From Ignavibacteriales bacterium (GTDB lineage: Bacteria > Bacteroidota > Ignavibacteria > UBA10030): a stretch of DNA of 64,000 nucleotides. A program made the position numbers and the translations under genes. This document shows, piece by piece, positions 28,678 to 39,836 of this stretch; the stretch's first letter is position 1, and each line of letters starts with the position of its first letter. Where the stretch lies: the NCBI GenBank assembly GCA_026390575.1, contig JAPLFR010000001.1, positions 310,001-374,000 on the forward strand, given 5' to 3'. Below the pieces are notes generated by a model. That model was given only the letters and a program-made list of their open reading frames with translations, did no database searches and had not been told where the DNA came from.

Positions 28678-29919
28678 ATGGAATTAGGAACAATTGAATG
28701 GACCGTACAACTTCGGTTCATTATAGCTCTTGCGCTTGGCTTCCTTGTTGGCCTCGAAAGAGAAAGTATAAAAGTTGACCAAAAGCTTGTTTTTGGCGGT
28801 GTGCGCACACATCCTATCATCAGCATGTTTGGTTTCGGATGCGCATGGCTGTACCAGATCGGGGCAACTGCTATGCTGCCCGTGGGATTATTGGCGATTG
28901 CCACACTCACCGGCATTGCTTTCGTCGCAAAAATCCGTGTCGATCGTTTTGGCACCACAAGCGAGGTCTCTGCATTACTCACATTTGTCACAGGTGCATT
29001 GGCACTGCTGGTAGATGTATGGATAGCGATGGCGTTGGGTGTCATGAATACCATGCTGCTCTCAGAAAAAGCCATGCTCGAATCCTACGTGGAACGGCTC
29101 AGCAAAGTGGAGTTTTTGGCAACAGTCAAATTTATTTTGGTGACTGTCATTATTTTGCCTGTCCTCCCAAACCAAGAATTTACACAATTCCATATCAATC
29201 CATTCAAAATCTGGCAAATTGTTATCATCGTTTCCACGCTGGGGTTTGTCGGATATTTATTAGAGAAAAAATTTGGATCCAAGCTCGGATTATGGATGTC
29301 GGGAATATTCGGAGGCATTGTTTCTAGCACGGCGGTAACGCTTTCAATGGGGCATATGGCAAAGCGAAATCCATCGCGCAGCAGCAGTGCATTGCAGGCG
29401 GCATTGCTTGCAAGCAGTGTGATGTATCTCCGTGTGTTAGTGTTGATCTGGTTCATCAATGCCTCGTTTATTCCAAAACTCTGGCCGCGTTTTGTTTTTC
29501 TTGCGGCCGTGGGCGTTGTGTTGTCGCTGCGAATAACCAGGAAGGAACTGCCTGCATCAGAATCGGAAGTGCCGGATTTACAGAACCCCTTTGAAATCCG
29601 TCCTGCAATTGGTTTCGCATTGCTCTTTGTCCTTCTCTCTATCGTAACAAGATTCGTGAAATCCACTCTGGGAAATTCCGGACTGCTGGCTGTATCCGCG
29701 ATCGTTGGTGTCTCTGATATCGATCCCTTCATCCTGTCGTTAGTGCAGGGATCGGACGGAACAGTACATATATTTACGTCGGCAATTATTCTTGCGATGA
29801 TGAGCAACACTATTGCAAAAGCAATTTATTTTTGGTCACTCTCTCCGATGACAAGGAAAGAGACTGCGTTGAAGTATTCCATCTATGCAGTGCTCCACAT
29901 CCCGTTTATAGTATGGTAA
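28678..29919 (+). CDS. MgtC/SapB-N plus DUF4010 membrane protein
   Basis: A 413-aa integral inner-membrane protein with about 11-12 hydrophobic segments. The N-terminal ~150 residues resemble the MgtC/SapB domain (LGFLVGLERESIK and the FVAKIRVDRFGTTSEVSALLTF region). The rest matches DUF4010 (LWMSGIFGGIVSSTAVTLSM; VSAIVGVSDIDPFILSL). The function is unknown; related proteins are linked to magnesium homeostasis or transport. An AGGAGAAG site precedes the ATG. Confidence 0.8.
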   Translation: MELGTIEWTVQLRFIIALALGFLVGLERESIKVDQKLVFGGVRTHPIISMFGFGCAWLYQIGATAMLPVGLLAIATLTGIAFVAKIRVDRFGTTSEVSALLTFVTGALALLVDVWIAMALGVMNTMLLSEKAMLESYVERLSKVEFLATVKFILVTVIILPVLPNQEFTQFHINPFKIWQIVIIVSTLGFVGYLLEKKFGSKLGLWMSGIFGGIVSSTAVTLSMGHMAKRNPSRSSSALQAALLASSVMYLRVLVLIWFINASFIPKLWPRFVFLAAVGVVLSLRITRKELPASESEVPDLQNPFEIRPAIGFALLFVLLSIVTRFVKSTLGNSGLLAVSAIVGVSDIDPFILSLVQGSDGTVHIFTSAIILAMMSNTIAKAIYFWSLSPMTRKETALKYSIYAVLHIPFIVW

Positions 29920-29975
29920 CAAAAGCAGTGAACGATGAGGAACATAGTACATATATATCCACGAGCGGGGCAGCC

Positions 29976-31055
29976 ATGACATTCTCTAAAATATCTCAGT
30001 GTGGTGTTTTAGTACTTGCTTGTTTGTTGTCATTATCCTGTTCAACGACATCCTACAGAGAAGTGTATCCCATGCTCACAGACGGCAGATACGATTCTGA
30101 ATTTCCATATCGCGGATGTTCTGAACAACTTGAACGGATTTCAGAATCTGTAAGGATGGTCAGTTGCATTGCATATTATAAAAGCTGGGTGTTTCCATTA
30201 GAGGCAAAAATCCGCCTCAAAGACATCCACGATCCATTCTTCAAAGAAAAAGCAGAAAAAGAAGTGTATTTGAATCAGGTTGCATCAGGAAGTGCGACAG
30301 TGATATATTATGAGAATAAGAAAATTGCAATGCTGACGTGCGCACACGTTGTCGACTTCAACGATACAGTGTATACTTTTTATCGTGGAGAAGATAGGCA
30401 ACAAACAGAATTCATCCAAAGTATCGCTTTGAAAGATCGCCAGATAAATTACGCCAGTGCAATTCCGGGAGCGCGTAATTTAGAAATCTTAGCGCTCGAC
30501 AAAGAAAATGATATGGCAATTTTGGGACAGAGAATCGAATCCTCTGGTGTTTCTGCTATTACTGTTTTCGATTATCCGATCGGAAAGGCAAAAGAACTTG
30601 AATGGGGAGCGTTTGTATACTTGTTTGGATACCCTGCCGGATATCGGATCGTGACAAAAGCAATTGTCAGCAATCCTAACCGGGATAAATATGGATCATT
30701 CCTCACAGATGCTGTTTTCAATAGGGGATTCAGCGGAGGCATTGTGCTCGCCATCCGCGATGGCGTTCCGAATTTTGAATTAGTGGGAATGATGAAATTA
30801 GTTCCCGGACGTCAACAATACTATTTGACTCCTGCCAAGGTAGGGGAATCTATTGAGTTTGATTCCACTATTCCATTTAAAGGCGATGTGTATGCTGAAA
30901 GTCGAACTGATATAATTTATGGTGTAGCTCCTGCAATTCCGGCAGAATTAATAGTAGATTTTCTACAAACGAATCAATCCAAGCTCATCGGCCAGGGATA
31001 TGATTTGCGATCTTTTCTCGAACGCCCGTCCATTGTAAAGCCAGAGAAAAAATGA
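29976..31055 (+). CDS. trypsin-like serine protease lipoprotein
   Basis: A 359-aa exported protein. The start is chosen at 29976 because it gives a clean lipoprotein signal (MTFSKISQCGVLVLACLLSL, then SC). The frame is open further upstream inside the previous gene, and a Met overlapping its stop codon (29913) is the alternative. The S1-type triad is plausible: His in LTCAHVVD, Asp in DKENDMAIL, Ser in RGFSGGIV. It may be a periplasmic or outer-membrane quality-control or processing protease. Its stop overlaps the start of the PduS-like gene by 4 bp, so the two are coupled. Confidence 0.7.
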   Translation: MTFSKISQCGVLVLACLLSLSCSTTSYREVYPMLTDGRYDSEFPYRGCSEQLERISESVRMVSCIAYYKSWVFPLEAKIRLKDIHDPFFKEKAEKEVYLNQVASGSATVIYYENKKIAMLTCAHVVDFNDTVYTFYRGEDRQQTEFIQSIALKDRQINYASAIPGARNLEILALDKENDMAILGQRIESSGVSAITVFDYPIGKAKELEWGAFVYLFGYPAGYRIVTKAIVSNPNRDKYGSFLTDAVFNRGFSGGIVLAIRDGVPNFELVGMMKLVPGRQQYYLTPAKVGESIEFDSTIPFKGDVYAESRTDIIYGVAPAIPAELIVDFLQTNQSKLIGQGYDLRSFLERPSIVKPEKK

Positions 31056-32365
31056 ATCTTGTAGAAAGCATACGCACAGCCGGTGTTGTTGGATGCGGCG
31101 GTGCTGGATTCCCTTCTCAAGTGAAAGCCGCATCGAAAGCAGACATTGTCGTTGCCAACGGGGCGGAGTGCGAACCGCTTCTTCACAAAGATTTAGAATT
31201 GATGATGCGGGAGCCGGAGGCAATCGTAGGCGGAGTGAAATTGTTGATGTCGGCGACAGGTGCGCAGCAGGGAATCATCGGTGTAAAAAAGAAGTATGAA
31301 GAGAAGTTAGATGGAATAAAATTAGCACTGCGCGGGACGAATATTACAGTACAATTTCTTGGAGATTATTATCCGACAGGCGACGAATATGTGCTTGTGT
31401 ACGAAACAACGAAACGTCTTATTCCTCCGCAAGGAATTCCTCTCGATGTCGGCGTTGTTGTACACAACGTAGAAACACTTCGGAATCTCCATCGCGCAGA
31501 TCAAGATCTTCCGTCCATCACAAAATATATTTCCGTAGCCGGTGCTGTTGCGCATCCTTCCACATTTGAAGTACCTATCGGTATATCATTCGCCGATGTC
31601 TTGAAAGCGGCGGGAGGCGTTACAGTTCCTGATTATGCAGTGTTCGTAAGCGGAATCATGATGGGAAAACTCGAAACAGATATGACGCTTCCGATCACCA
31701 AAACCTGCGCGGGACTGATCGTTCTTCCAACGACACATCGACTTGTGCAAAGAAAAAGCTTACCAGCGGACGCGATGCATCGCATTGGAAAATCGGCATG
31801 CGATCAATGCAGCTTCTGTACGGAGTTCTGCCCGCGCTATTTATTAGGGTATGATGTTCAGCCGCACAAAGTCATGCGGAGCTTGTCCTTCACAGCTACG
31901 GGAGAAGATATTTGGAATCAATCGGCGCAATTGTGCTGCGCGTGCGGTCTATGCACACTGTATGCCTGCCCGGAAGATCTCTATCCAAAGGAAGCTTGTG
32001 ATAAGGCAAAAAGCGATTTACGTACGAAGGGAATAAAATGGAGTGGCGACCGCGATGTTCATATTCATCCAATTTATGACGGAAGGCATGTCCCGCTGAA
32101 AAAGCTCGTAGCCAAATTGGGAATAGAAGAATATGACGTGCTGGCTCACTTTGTCGAGAAAAAATTCTCTCCTGATCAAATCCGGCTGCCGCTTTTACAG
32201 CATCTTGGAGCGCCCGCAAAAGCAATTGTATCGATCGGACAGCGAGTAAATGCTGGTGAAGCTGTCGCAGATATACCGGAAGGAAAACTTGGTGCACGCA
32301 TTCATGCGAGCATTGATGGACAGGTGAAAACAGTAGATGGCGAGATTGTTATCGAACGAGCTTGA
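31052..32365 (+). CDS. PduS/RnfC-like flavin and iron-sulfur oxidoreductase
   Basis: A 437-aa protein close to PduS, the cobalamin reductase of propanediol microcompartments, and to RnfC. N-terminal: FMN/NADH-binding part (GCGGAGFPSQVK; VVANGAECEPLLHKD). Middle: SLBB domain (about 145-225). Then two 4Fe-4S motifs (CDQCSFCTEFCPR near 250-262 and CCACGLCTLYACPED near 290-305). C-terminal: barrel-sandwich domain (GQRVNAGEAVADIPEG). It would pass electrons from NADH through flavin to the clusters. It is coupled to a protease gene upstream and followed 14 bp later by a PduT-like shell protein. Confidence 0.85.
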   Translation: MNLVESIRTAGVVGCGGAGFPSQVKAASKADIVVANGAECEPLLHKDLELMMREPEAIVGGVKLLMSATGAQQGIIGVKKKYEEKLDGIKLALRGTNITVQFLGDYYPTGDEYVLVYETTKRLIPPQGIPLDVGVVVHNVETLRNLHRADQDLPSITKYISVAGAVAHPSTFEVPIGISFADVLKAAGGVTVPDYAVFVSGIMMGKLETDMTLPITKTCAGLIVLPTTHRLVQRKSLPADAMHRIGKSACDQCSFCTEFCPRYLLGYDVQPHKVMRSLSFTATGEDIWNQSAQLCCACGLCTLYACPEDLYPKEACDKAKSDLRTKGIKWSGDRDVHIHPIYDGRHVPLKKLVAKLGIEEYDVLAHFVEKKFSPDQIRLPLLQHLGAPAKAIVSIGQRVNAGEAVADIPEGKLGARIHASIDGQVKTVDGEIVIERA

Positions 32366-32379
32366 AAGATGAGACGACC

Positions 32380-32931
32380 ATGGAAATGAACGCAATAGGA
32401 TTAATTGAATTAACTAGTATTGCGGCTGGTTTTAATTCTGCTGACGCAATGCTGAAAGCATCTGCTGTGGAATTAATACTTTCGCGCAGTATATGCTCCG
32501 GCAAATATATGGTGCTTATAGGCGGCGATGTGGCAGCAGTGCGTGCGAGTGTTGACGCGGGAAAAGAAGCAAGCAGGGGAATGATCATAGATACATTTGT
32601 TATTCCGAATATTCATCCGGATATATTCCCTGCTATTTCCGGTACAACGCAAGTGCAGATGCTCGAAGCGCTTGGAATTGTTGAATCGTTCAGTGTTGCT
32701 TCGCTTATCGAAGCTGCGGATGCCGCTGTCAAGACTGCACGCGTACAATTGATAGAAATTCGTTTGGCGATGGCGCTCGGCGGAAAAGCATTCGTTACAA
32801 TGACCGGCGATGTTGCTTCCGTGAAGTCCGCGGTTGATGCTGCAGCGGCGGTGTGTTCGGAACGTGGATTGTTAGTGAACAAAGTTGTCATTCCTAATCC
32901 GCGCAAAGAATTGTTAAAAGAAATCGTCTAA
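32380..32931 (+). CDS. PduT-like tandem-BMC shell protein
   Basis: A 183-aa protein made of two bacterial-microcompartment (BMC) domains, about residues 4-88 (MNAIGLIELTSIAAG, MVLIGGDVAAVRASVDAG) and about 95-180 (ALGIVESFSVASLIEAAD, VTMTGDVASVKSAVDAA). Such proteins form trimers in a shell facet. Cys39 in RSICSGKY matches the position of the PduT cysteine (Cys38 in Citrobacter) that holds one 4Fe-4S cluster at the trimer pore. With the PduS-like protein upstream it would conduct electrons across a shell. The ATG at 32380 is preferred over a TTG at 32362. No other shell or core-enzyme gene is in the window. Confidence 0.87.
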   Translation: MEMNAIGLIELTSIAAGFNSADAMLKASAVELILSRSICSGKYMVLIGGDVAAVRASVDAGKEASRGMIIDTFVIPNIHPDIFPAISGTTQVQMLEALGIVESFSVASLIEAADAAVKTARVQLIEIRLAMALGGKAFVTMTGDVASVKSAVDAAAAVCSERGLLVNKVVIPNPRKELLKEIV

Positions 32932-32982: not shown

Positions 32983-34134
32983 GTGAAGAAAAAATCAAAT
33001 AGTAACACCATGACCCCAAGAATACCTCGTTTTCTTCAAGGTTTGCACAATATTCTTACCCGCGATCTCACATGGGATGATTTAAATAAATCACTGAATG
33101 AAGATATGCGCGGGATGTACGAATTCTATACAAGAAGCATAAAATCAGTTGAGGGGGAGCGAAGAGGAATAAAACGATCGGTTAAATTTGTGTGGCATCT
33201 CTTCGTTGCTTTCCTCTTGAAACTTACACCGCCGCGGCGGTTGATGTATGCCATCGCGTTTGTGTTTATTATCGTTGCAGTGTCGGAAGGCAAGACTGCG
33301 TCTGCGGTCTATTCTTTTATCATTGTTACATTTTTATTAGCAATGGAGCTTGCCGACAAACTGATTACAAAAGATGAATTGGGTATTGCACGGGACATTC
33401 AACTGAGTCTTCAGCCGGATAGCGATGTGATCGTTCCGGGATATCAACTCGCCGCGCATAGCGAAGCGGCAAAGCAGGTCGGCGGCGACTATTATGATAT
33501 TCTCAATCTTTCGGATAGCAGTACGCTGGCTGTCATTGGTGATGTGTCCGGGAAAGGTATTTCATCGGCGTTGTATGTCGTAAAGATGCAGACGGCTCTT
33601 CAGCTCTATACAGCTGAAACGAACGATCCTCGGGAATTACTCATTCGGCTTAATTCGCATGTGTTCGGACAGCTGAAACGAAATTATTTCCTTTCACTTC
33701 TCTTGGTAAAACTGCTTTCCGATGGAAAAGTGGAATTGTGCCGTGCAGGTCATCCGCCGGCTCTCTTGTGCCGGGCAGCTGATAAGTCTATTACATGGCT
33801 CAAGCCCAATGGCATTGCTGTGGGGATGGCGCCCTCATCTAACGGCGATACTGGATCTGAGCAGAAGACAAATTGTTTTGGTAATTCATTAGAAACACAG
33901 TCTGTTCAATTGGAACAAGGCGATGTGCTTTTCCTTTTTACAGATGGCGTGATCGAATCAGTCGATACGGATGGAAAAGAATATGGACTGGAAAGAATTG
34001 CTGATCTGGTCAAATACTGCGCAGGAGAAACAGTGGAACAAATGCGTCAGCATATTATTAGCGAACTCACCCGGCATCGCGCAGGAGCGGATCTGAGAGA
34101 CGATACTACATTTGTGCTTTTGAAACGGACATAA
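32983..34134 (+). CDS. PP2C-type (SpoIIE/RsbU) membrane-associated serine/threonine phosphatase
   Basis: A 383-aa protein. Residues ~75-135 carry hydrophobic segments (LFVAFLLKL; LMYAIAFVFIIVAV; SFIIVTFLLAME). A SpoIIE phosphatase domain follows from about 140, with metal-binding signatures QVGGDYYDI, VIGDVSGKGISSA, RAGHPPALL, LFLFTDGVIES and LRDDTTFVLL. Such phosphatases act on anti-sigma-factor antagonists in partner-switching pathways; no partner is nearby. The start is uncertain: GTG at 32983 without a clear ribosome-binding site, or ATG at 33010. Confidence 0.85.
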   Translation: MKKKSNSNTMTPRIPRFLQGLHNILTRDLTWDDLNKSLNEDMRGMYEFYTRSIKSVEGERRGIKRSVKFVWHLFVAFLLKLTPPRRLMYAIAFVFIIVAVSEGKTASAVYSFIIVTFLLAMELADKLITKDELGIARDIQLSLQPDSDVIVPGYQLAAHSEAAKQVGGDYYDILNLSDSSTLAVIGDVSGKGISSALYVVKMQTALQLYTAETNDPRELLIRLNSHVFGQLKRNYFLSLLLVKLLSDGKVELCRAGHPPALLCRAADKSITWLKPNGIAVGMAPSSNGDTGSEQKTNCFGNSLETQSVQLEQGDVLFLFTDGVIESVDTDGKEYGLERIADLVKYCAGETVEQMRQHIISELTRHRAGADLRDDTTFVLLKRT

Positions 34135-37763: not shown

Positions 37764-39836
37764 ATGCTAAGTTCTGATTTAAAGGAGGCTTTTTCACAAG
37801 AAAATATTGAACAAGCATGGTTGTGGACTAGAACAAATTCGAATAGAGAATATAAGCAGTACTTCCGACATATCTATCGAGCTTATGCAATTACAATTCC
37901 ACGATCTCTTCAGTACTTGCGTAATAGATTAAACAAAGAAACCTTTACTCCATCTTATGCTACAAAATTTTATTTCCCCAAGAAGTCTGGTATCCTGAGA
38001 CCTTACTCTCTTCTTTGTGTAGAAGATCAGATAGTTTACCAAGCATTGGTCAATATTGTGGCTAATAAGCTGGTAAGACAAGTTGGCTCAAGATATCAAA
38101 AAAGTATTTTCGGAAACTTATATGCTGGCAAAAAAAGTCTATATTTCTATCAAGATTGGCGAAAAGGATACGGAGCGTTCTCTGAAGTCATCAGAGATAC
38201 AGTAGATCGTGGTTTTATCTATTCAGCTTCATTTGACCTTACTGCTTGTTACGATTCAATTGATCATAAAGTCCTCTGCCATTTTCTTGAAAAGCTTGGT
38301 CTTCAGAAGGAGTTCTGCAAGTTTCTTTGTGATTGTCTTCTTCATTGGACTGTGGCACAAAATGAACGTCCAATATTTATTGGTCATGGTATTCCTCAAG
38401 GCCCATTACCCTCTGGATTGTTATCTGAAGTTGTTTTAAGGCATTTTGATGAAGATAAGCGCAATCCAAGACAAATTACCTACTTCCGTTATGTTGATGA
38501 CATCAGACTTTTTTCAAAATCAGAATCTTCGCTTCGAAGTGAACTTGTCAAGCTTGATAAAAGCAGTAAAGAAATTGGTCTTTTCCCTCAAAGTGGAAAG
38601 ATAGAAATACACAAAGTTAAAAACATCGATGAGGAGATTAAAAGCATAAGTCATCCTCCTGAATGGGAAGCAATGTCTTTTGATCCAAATCAGAAATCAA
38701 TTAGAGATAGACTTGTCAAATTAACACCACGATATAAAGTTTCGAATGAAACTCGATTCAAATATGTTCTTGGTCGCGCCGCACCAAAAGCTGAACTTGC
38801 TGAGCGTCTTCTAAAGGTTGTTGAGAAGCAACCACATCTCTATCGTTCAATATTTGGCCACTTAACGAGAGCACCCAAACTCTCCTCAAAGGTATCTTCT
38901 CTGTGTATTAAATTACTTAAGACGAACGATCTTTATGCTTCATTCTCTGCTTCGCTTATTCGATCTGTGCGCGATAATCTAAATAAAAAGCAGTTACCTA
39001 ATTTATACAATTATTGTCGATCTCGTCTTAATGGTCGATTTCTTACGAGCGATCCCGAGCTTCGAGCTGTTGTTGTCGGCGTGCTTCTAAAAAACGGTAA
39101 ACTCACATGGGCTCAAGCCAAGTACAATGTTTCTTGGAGTCAAAGTTGGTGGGTTCGTTCAGCAATTATCGGTGATATTAATATTTCTCTAATCGGTATT
39201 CCTTCTTACCAGAATTTAATTGATTTACTAATGCGAGATCGATCGCCAGATGTGTCAGTAGTTGCAGTTGAGCATCTTCTTAGTGCAGCACTTCATCCTG
39301 CAGGCAATCTCGGTGAAATTAATATCATAGGGCAATATGGTCTTCGCAATGCAGGTGAAACTGGAAGAGTCGTTGAAGGAGTTTGCATATTATCTCGCTT
39401 CATTATTTCCACACTAGGAAATCGAACTGCAGGAATACGTTGGAAGAATATTTGTGGCAATAAATATACCGATATCCTCGGTAAAATTGTACGTTGGGCT
39501 GCTTATGCGCAAACAGATGCAACTGCCTGGGTGAATCTAACTGACACAATTAATGATTTAATTTTGGATAGGCTTTTTCAGCATGATAGTACAATTGGTA
39601 ATCGTATCCTTGGTAATTTTGGTTCAGTCATGCAAGCCGGTAGTAGGTTTGCACATAAATATCCTTTATTGTACAATGCAGTTATCACAATACATAAACG
39701 TCGCCTCGAATCAGATCTAAGTCATGCGATAACAAGAGGATCAGGACGAATAACTCGACCAATTCGTTTTAAAGAAATTCCTAGGCTTAAGACACTACTC
39801 TCGTCTGGATATAATGAGCTTTGGAGAAAGTGGTGA
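37764..39836 (+). CDS. reverse transcriptase of the unknown-group/DRT/Abi type
   Basis: A 690-aa RNA-directed DNA polymerase. The RT core lies in residues ~60-285: SGILRPYSLLCVEDQIVYQA (near 75-94), motif A FDLTACYDSIDH (157-168, catalytic Asp158), motif B GIPQGPLPSG (209-218), motif C YVDD (243-246), and IGLFPQSGK. The C-terminal ~400 residues are all-helical and repeat-like, as in Abi and DRT antiphage enzymes. There is no maturase, intron RNA or integrase. It is followed 62 bp later by a 232-aa partner. A defence role by DNA synthesis during phage infection is inferred; the exact group could not be assigned. Confidence 0.85.
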   Translation: MLSSDLKEAFSQENIEQAWLWTRTNSNREYKQYFRHIYRAYAITIPRSLQYLRNRLNKETFTPSYATKFYFPKKSGILRPYSLLCVEDQIVYQALVNIVANKLVRQVGSRYQKSIFGNLYAGKKSLYFYQDWRKGYGAFSEVIRDTVDRGFIYSASFDLTACYDSIDHKVLCHFLEKLGLQKEFCKFLCDCLLHWTVAQNERPIFIGHGIPQGPLPSGLLSEVVLRHFDEDKRNPRQITYFRYVDDIRLFSKSESSLRSELVKLDKSSKEIGLFPQSGKIEIHKVKNIDEEIKSISHPPEWEAMSFDPNQKSIRDRLVKLTPRYKVSNETRFKYVLGRAAPKAELAERLLKVVEKQPHLYRSIFGHLTRAPKLSSKVSSLCIKLLKTNDLYASFSASLIRSVRDNLNKKQLPNLYNYCRSRLNGRFLTSDPELRAVVVGVLLKNGKLTWAQAKYNVSWSQSWWVRSAIIGDINISLIGIPSYQNLIDLLMRDRSPDVSVVAVEHLLSAALHPAGNLGEINIIGQYGLRNAGETGRVVEGVCILSRFIISTLGNRTAGIRWKNICGNKYTDILGKIVRWAAYAQTDATAWVNLTDTINDLILDRLFQHDSTIGNRILGNFGSVMQAGSRFAHKYPLLYNAVITIHKRRLESDLSHAITRGSGRITRPIRFKEIPRLKTLLSSGYNELWRKW

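Follow-up and report, generated by a model that had tools for sequence, protein, structure and literature searches.

Among described bacterial microcompartments (BMCs), those of the FRAG type have shell genes at up to six places in a genome, commonly include a triplet of BMC-P genes, and occur in Ignavibacteriae among others (Sutter et al. 2021, PMC8217296). Aldehyde dehydrogenases (AldDhs) are present in FRAG compartments, with no obvious signature enzyme (PMC8217296). The same catalogue describes SPU compartments by pfam01791 and pfam02502 enzymes, and reports that some carriers of the HO microcompartment encode, elsewhere in the genome, a pfam01791 aldolase with an N-terminal extension resembling an encapsulation peptide (PMC8217296). 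As for redox proteins, Citrobacter PduS has been shown to oxidize NADH, to contain flavin mononucleotide (FMN) and two 4Fe-4S clusters, and to bind PduT (PMC2982820). The four-domain make-up of PduS and the PduT motif C-P/S/A-G-K/R/S-Y/F are described in PMC6325248, and the potential of the PduT cluster, +99 mV, suits an acceptor role (PMC2982820, PMC6325248). Here we compare with these systems a PduS-like and a PduT-like gene that lie side by side in a 64,000-nucleotide stretch (the window) of an Ignavibacteriales bacterium (assembly GCA_026390575.1, contig JAPLFR010000001.1, positions 310,001 to 374,000).

We read this pair as the redox module of a microcompartment that is dispersed over at least six places in the genome, in a FRAG-type arrangement, and put the probability of this reading at about 0.78. 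The cargo looks like sugar-phosphate (SPU-like) cargo, that of a compartment that degrades the sugar found in DNA, and PduS-PduT is probably the electron outlet. The pair comprises the following features.

31052..32365, forward strand: pduS-like gene (437 aa), with Complex1_51K, SLBB, Fer4_17 and RnfC_N each above the Pfam cut-off
31799..31969, forward strand: coding segment of the two 4Fe-4S motifs (residues 250-306 of the PduS-like protein), from sequence and Cys conservation
32380..32931, forward strand: pduT-like BMC-T shell gene from its ATG start, with two PF00936 domains (E 4.8e-49)
32494..32496, forward strand: codon of Cys39, a predicted pore 4Fe-4S ligand in the motif CSGKY, Cys in 73/73 aligned relatives

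The first-pass annotation of the window had reported a PduS-like reductase next to a tandem-BMC protein, and this adjacency is confirmed, with 14 bp between the PduS stop and the pduT-like ATG. The pduT-like frame extends upstream to a TTG (the TTG-started open reading frame, or ORF, is 32362-32931); our Cys39 numbering uses the ATG at 32380. The placement of Cys39 at the Fe-S position also held. It aligns with a cysteine of 3nwg, does not vary across the 15 rows of the shell-protein alignment, and was not lost in any aligned relative. An AlphaFold2 model of the PduT-like protein (mean pLDDT 92.1, from 15 sequences) found its best Foldseek matches in 3nwg, 3pac (PduT) and 3n79 (PduT C38S), with a template modelling score of 0.93 to 3pac. 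In the model, the shell protein is predicted to have both a tandem BMC fold and a cysteine at the PduT pore position, and its CSGKY falls within the published motif pattern. In the PduS-like protein, Cys 40, 250, 253, 256, 260, 295, 298, 301, 306 and 316 are cysteines in all 80 relatives (the best 80 of 173 loci, from named records). Cys296 is kept in 78/80, while the eight cysteines of the two 4Fe-4S motifs, with Cys295 and not Cys296 as ligand, are kept in 80/80. Because both proteins score under the nearest curated NCBIfam cut-offs, we call them PduS-like and PduT-like: the shell protein does not reach the PduT equivalog cut-off (TIGR02526, 127.6 vs 250.3 bits), nor the reductase that of RnfC/RsxC (TIGR01945, 231 vs 245.95 bits).

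Set beside the PduS-PduT pairs of Pdu and GRM compartments, the window pair has the same gene order, four-domain PduS, two 4Fe-4S motifs, pore cysteine pattern and PduT fold. It differs in lying outside a pdu/GRM locus, in its sub-cut-off PduT score, and in having its partner shell encoded in trans. Going by homology, the two proteins would do as Citrobacter PduS and PduT do.

We searched the whole genome (3.82 Mb, 16 contigs, 99.91% complete) for more BMC genes and found two BMC-H and three BMC-P genes elsewhere. In total, the genome has four PF00936 domains (two BMC-H genes and one BMC-T) and three PF03319 genes, at four places. Candidate cargo genes are found at further places, and the count of six takes DeoC and the BMC-P pair as one.

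Contig C15, 62.1-63.1 kb: two adjacent BMC-H genes (PF00936)
Contig C16, 334.9-335.4 kb: two adjacent BMC-P genes (PF03319)
Contig C1, 388841-389092: third BMC-P, a lone gene (PF03319) some 15 kb past the right edge of the window
Contig C16, 3.5 kb from the BMC-P pair: DeoC, with about 70 residues ahead of the catalytic domain, tag-like
Contig C9, 140.0-141.7 kb: acetaldehyde-dehydrogenase-like AldDh (TIGR02518, 614.7 bits)
Contig C2, 119.4 kb: second RpiB, with a microcompartment-like N-terminal domain

The frames of the matches in the window genome are free of internal stops. As the first-pass annotation had stated, no BMC-H or BMC-P gene lies near the pair. The genome-wide profile searches detected no further PF00936 or PF03319 gene in the window, where a divergent CcmP-like BMC-T could escape PF00936 (one from a compact relative, G082, scored only 20.7 bits). 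A full BMC locus just outside the window was not found either, the lone BMC-P gene being all that the searches found there. The suggestion that the pair is a satellite of a compartment encoded elsewhere was thus right in that shell and cargo genes exist elsewhere in the genome; no main locus was found, and the parts are scattered.

The scatter is not an assembly effect, because single-contig genomes also hold the parts far apart. In G169, BMC-H lies at 3.09, PduS at 1.41, the BMC-P pair at 2.70, AldDh at 2.08 and DeoC at 3.75 Mb; the same parts are at 2.64, 1.56, 3.52, 1.91 and 3.06 Mb in G172, and at 2.32, 2.05, 2.42, 0.87 and 2.30 Mb in G107, where DeoC and BMC-H are 17 kb apart. The parts are likewise scattered in the single contig of G142, though DeoC is 10 kb from BMC-H. 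In 15 of 21 carriers in family f13, DeoC is on the same contig as BMC-H and 7-17 kb from it (by hand from coordinates), and dispersal is therefore only partial there.

The isolation of the pair recurs as well. Both genes are present on the same strand in 73 of the 80 relative loci, and in 64 the open frames are less than 200 bp apart. The cultured Stygiobacter electus (L088) is among the relatives that have the two genes. Five of the seven loci that show no full BMC-T are cut by the record end; the other two, L083 and L099, continue yet show none. Of the 38 loci flanked by 8 kb or more on each side, 35 have no other shell gene beside the pair, counting those that our queries could see. The exceptions are L033 (a BMC-H pair 3.3 kb away), L087 and the KSB1 locus L073. 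By ORF reading, L073:8156-16645 holds three BMC-P, a tagged RpiB-like gene, PduS, BMC-T, a PduL-like gene, AldDh, BMC-H, a class II aldolase-like gene and an acetate kinase-like gene; several of these names, class II aldolase-like included, were given by eye.

We then counted the parts across 197 genomes of the class. PF00936 was found in 76 of these genomes and both shell families in 73. PduS (E <= 1e-60) was present in 54, all of them among the 73 with both families and none among the other 124. AldDh matches (E <= 1e-40) occurred in 71 genomes and exceeded 400 bits in 68, again exclusively in genomes with both families (68/73 vs 0/124). A match to PF03319 was found in 73 genomes, 57 of which have exactly three such genes. 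In families f1, f2 and f3, taken in full, there are 14 carriers and 14 others, and AldDh is absent from all 14 others; 11 of these have no PF00936 match, and 3 (G159, G193, G086) have another type of compartment.

Of the 68 genomes with shell and AldDh, 49 have PduS and 19 do not. At least four BMC domains were counted in 48 of the 49, compared to one to three in all 19 without PduS, as expected if BMC-T is absent too. In the sole exception, G176, the contig stops 70 bp from PduS, on the expected BMC-T side. Since PduS and the number of BMC domains move together and 19 of 68 genomes have no PduS, the compartment can exist without the pair, which is an optional module. The 68 include G082, which is compact and not scattered, and G004, which was kept because it has AldDh, with a PduS 45% identical to that of the window. 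The remaining five of the 73 (G062, G086, G112, G159, G193) have no AldDh above 400 bits (G112 has a 154-bit match). Their PduS is 43-44% identical to the window PduS and lies within about 2.5 kb of shell genes; the compartment in these genomes is of a different type.

The candidate cargo proteins carry terminal additions. The DeoC N-terminal extension opens with a helix-like MDKQTILHLIEQVL. Cysteines follow the helix (L010:6253-6352; DeoC loci among L195-L299), in patterns like CTKDGICTDNLC. Most lineages have one to four of them, and they are kept even where PduS is absent. An Fe-S site was considered here, since many genomes have three or four of these cysteines, but many of the later-fetched sequences have just one or two. 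AldDh ends in a conserved helix-like C-terminal tail behind a variable linker, present in 30/30 fetched sequences (28 by pattern, two by eye). The RpiB N-terminal domain was found in all 15 carriers fetched (by pattern in 10 and by eye in 5) vs 0/5 fetched shell-free genomes, both sets having been chosen for long frames. The DeoC-type aldolase (pfam01791) and RpiB-type isomerase (pfam02502) are thus both present, and both have N-terminal extensions.

The DeoC extension follows the shell across genomes. The best DeoC match enters the extension (query_from <= 34) in 67 of the 68 carriers, and the match in the 68th, G031, is cut by the contig start. Among 70 other genomes listed (91 lie outside the 68, and 21 of these are excluded), the match enters the extension in three (G177, G166, G041), and the full helix-plus-Cys form was found in none. 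Our motif pattern missed eight fetched DeoC sequences: the carriers G146 and G070 show the extension at their printed starts, and the remaining six (G106, G062, G162, G054, G042, G028) show no helix-and-Cys part by eye.

Two comparisons link DeoC directly to the shell. The first is with G177 and G166, which belong to the same genus as the window genome and gave no match for shell, PduS or AldDh. Both retain the order DeoC-Fmt-Def-NlpC-RpoD-DeoB, minus the two BMC-P genes between RpoD and DeoB, and their DeoC is without the helix and Cys part. As the G177 DeoC is 82% identical and retains part of the linker, this suggests that the tag was lost rather than never gained. The second is G082, where one run of genes encodes RpiB, DeoC, BMC-P, AldDh, BMC-H, an actin/HSP70-like protein, a CcmP-like BMC-T, a weakly EutQ-like protein, BMC-P and BMC-P. 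AldDh, extended DeoC and shell are therefore neighbours in one unscattered genome.

DeoC yields acetaldehyde from deoxyribose-5-phosphate, and an acetylating dehydrogenase yields acetyl-CoA and NADH from acetaldehyde. In the pathway that we propose, encapsulated DeoC would convert deoxyribose-5-phosphate to acetaldehyde, from which AldDh, with CoA and NAD+, would form acetyl-CoA and NADH. PduS, bound to PduT, would draw electrons from NADH via FMN and its two 4Fe-4S clusters, and these electrons would pass to the pore 4Fe-4S cluster of PduT and on to the cytosol.

As regards FRAG, the window genome agrees in having several places with shell genes, a BMC-P triplet, an AldDh and an Ignavibacteria host; the match is one of arrangement. 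It differs in that tag-like ends, joint presence and absence across genomes, and one compact relative tie DeoC, RpiB and AldDh to the shell, and in that PduS-PduT is seen as an optional module. Our literature search, with most subscription journals and supplements outside its reach, found no paper that assigns a DeoC cargo to FRAG. With SPU, the window genome shares a DeoC-type aldolase, an RpiB-type isomerase and an AldDh. Unlike in SPU, its cargo is not in one locus with the shell (in G082 it is), no PduL was found, and PduS-PduT is present. The HO microcompartment of Haliangium ochraceum also has the BMC-P triplet, but it has a main locus and none was found in the window genome.

Several points weigh against the dispersed deoxyribose-phosphate compartment proposed here. 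The co-occurrence figures are raw genome counts with no tree correction, and the 400-bit line for AldDh was set after the scores were seen. Close to that line are the shell-free G190 and G041, at 382 and 360 bits; the lowest carrier, G057, is partial and scores 421. DeoC is common by itself (159/197 class genomes), and in shell-free G041 and G155 the N-terminus of DeoC is helix-like, with the Cys part missing. The amphipathicity of the DeoC N-terminus is modest: the mean best moment is 0.469 (n=65) vs 0.354 +/- 0.104 for shuffled sequences, and 23% are above the 95th percentile. The matches of the RpiB N-terminal domain to TIGR02536 and PduM fall far short of the cut-offs, and no PduL-type phosphotransacylase (PF06130) was found in the window genome. 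G082, with its CcmP-like BMC-T, has no PduS match, and because PduS-PduT is absent there, this locus provides no link between DeoC and the pair itself. Since the compact L073 locus contains a PduS 52% identical to that of the window and the aldolase-like gene, with no DeoC match, the PduS module serves more than one cargo. Lastly, the deoB-rpoD neighbourhood of the BMC-P pair is not counted as functional evidence, as deoB stays by rpoD without BMC-P.

The best-surviving alternative keeps the compartment and the membership of the pair, and takes the aldehyde from some enzyme other than one acting on deoxyribose-phosphate. FRAG in the catalogue has no assigned signature enzyme (PMC8217296), the window AldDh falls just under the cut-off for acetylating acetaldehyde dehydrogenases (614.7 vs 620.1 bits), and the L073 PduS lies beside a class II aldolase-like gene. 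We nonetheless consider another substrate unlikely, given that the full DeoC extension tracks the shell (67/68, with none confirmed among the 70 others listed), is missing from DeoC in G177 and G166, which share the genus but have no shell, and belongs to a DeoC contiguous with shell genes and AldDh in G082.

Distinctly less probable is that PduS acts as a corrin reductase, maintaining B12 in its reduced state for a B12 enzyme of the compartment, as proposed for pdu. Citrobacter PduS does reduce cobalamin (PMC2982820). No B12 enzyme was recognised among the ORFs around the window pair, the rest of the genome not having been searched for such enzymes. Of DeoC, RpiB and AldDh, none belongs to a family known to use B12, which also counts against this role.

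The first-pass annotation had offered a free-standing electron-transfer pair as its second possibility. That 35 of 38 relatives have no other shell gene beside the pair would fit this idea, but it is hardly credible when all 54 PduS genomes carry both shell families and the 124 genomes without both carry no PduS. Just as improbable are decaying remnants from which no organelle is made: dispersal and absence in some f1-f3 members suggest a dispensable trait, but shell genes are kept across many genera (BMC-P in 52/109), as are the Fe-S cysteines, absences of the parts coincide, and the frames in the window genome have no internal stops.

Some further observations concern the rest of the shell, for which, as for AldDh, the 30 BMC-H/BMC-P and 30 AldDh loci inspected were the best-scoring ones and not a random draw. 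The BMC-P pair adjoins rpoD in 30/30 fetched loci (L135-L164), with deoB on the other side in 27/30. The order deoB-BMC-P-BMC-P-rpoD at first suggested a functional link of DeoB, but it was set aside as evidence, since G177 and G166 keep deoB beside rpoD without BMC-P. The second BMC-H (L008:17453-18118) contains a long acidic linker, and its conserved C-terminal motif gives a weak Rho_N match (E 5.6e-4, below the cut-off). Its tail shows ten invariant columns in 18 aligned relatives, and the L107 frame is shorter, without the tail. The Rho_N-like tail modelled from L033 without an alignment gave a mean pLDDT of 69.5 (VIA rows mainly residues 1-93). By its sequence, this protein is a shell tile whose tail may bind nucleic acid.

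The genes flanking the pair were also as first described, a protease and a phosphatase.

29832..31055, forward strand: trypsin-like protease (PF13365), probably an unrelated neighbour
32983..34134, forward strand: SpoIIE-type phosphatase (PF07228), a possible regulator, 51 bp downstream of the pair

The protease stop and the pduS-like start share 4 bp (ATGA), and a protease homologue is beside PduS in 1/80 relatives (E <= 1e-10), the nearest relative, L021. In 23/80 relatives (L047, L060, L088 and 20 more among L021-L100), a SpoIIE gene runs into the 5' end of the PduS ORF or directly adjoins it. From this gene placement, a regulatory link of the phosphatase to the pair via partner switching is possible, but the group may simply be rich in SpoIIE genes. 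Farther along the window, at 37764-39836, the central part of a 690-aa ORF resembles a reverse transcriptase by eye (YFRYVDD).

The pair is ordinary in itself, and is the redox part of a scattered organelle of a kind already described, though with no function assigned to it. The new point is the proposed cargo for FRAG, which the 2021 catalogue grouped by shell proteins alone. Drawn from joint presence, ends that resemble targeting tags, joint absence from sister genomes and a compact relative, the cargo proposal leads to a testable pathway. More tentatively, and with slightly less than even odds in our estimation, the FRAG-type compartments of the class would all be one dispersed deoxyribose-phosphate (SPU-like) metabolosome with about six gene places, its parts united by peptide tags alone. 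PduS-PduT would then be an exchangeable electron outlet through which acetaldehyde could be oxidized with no alcohol dehydrogenase inside, with SpoIIE maybe a partner-switching link. Our findings suggest that an organelle of many parts can be passed on even when its genes are not clustered, and that PduS-PduT is an optional electron module, gained and lost as a unit.

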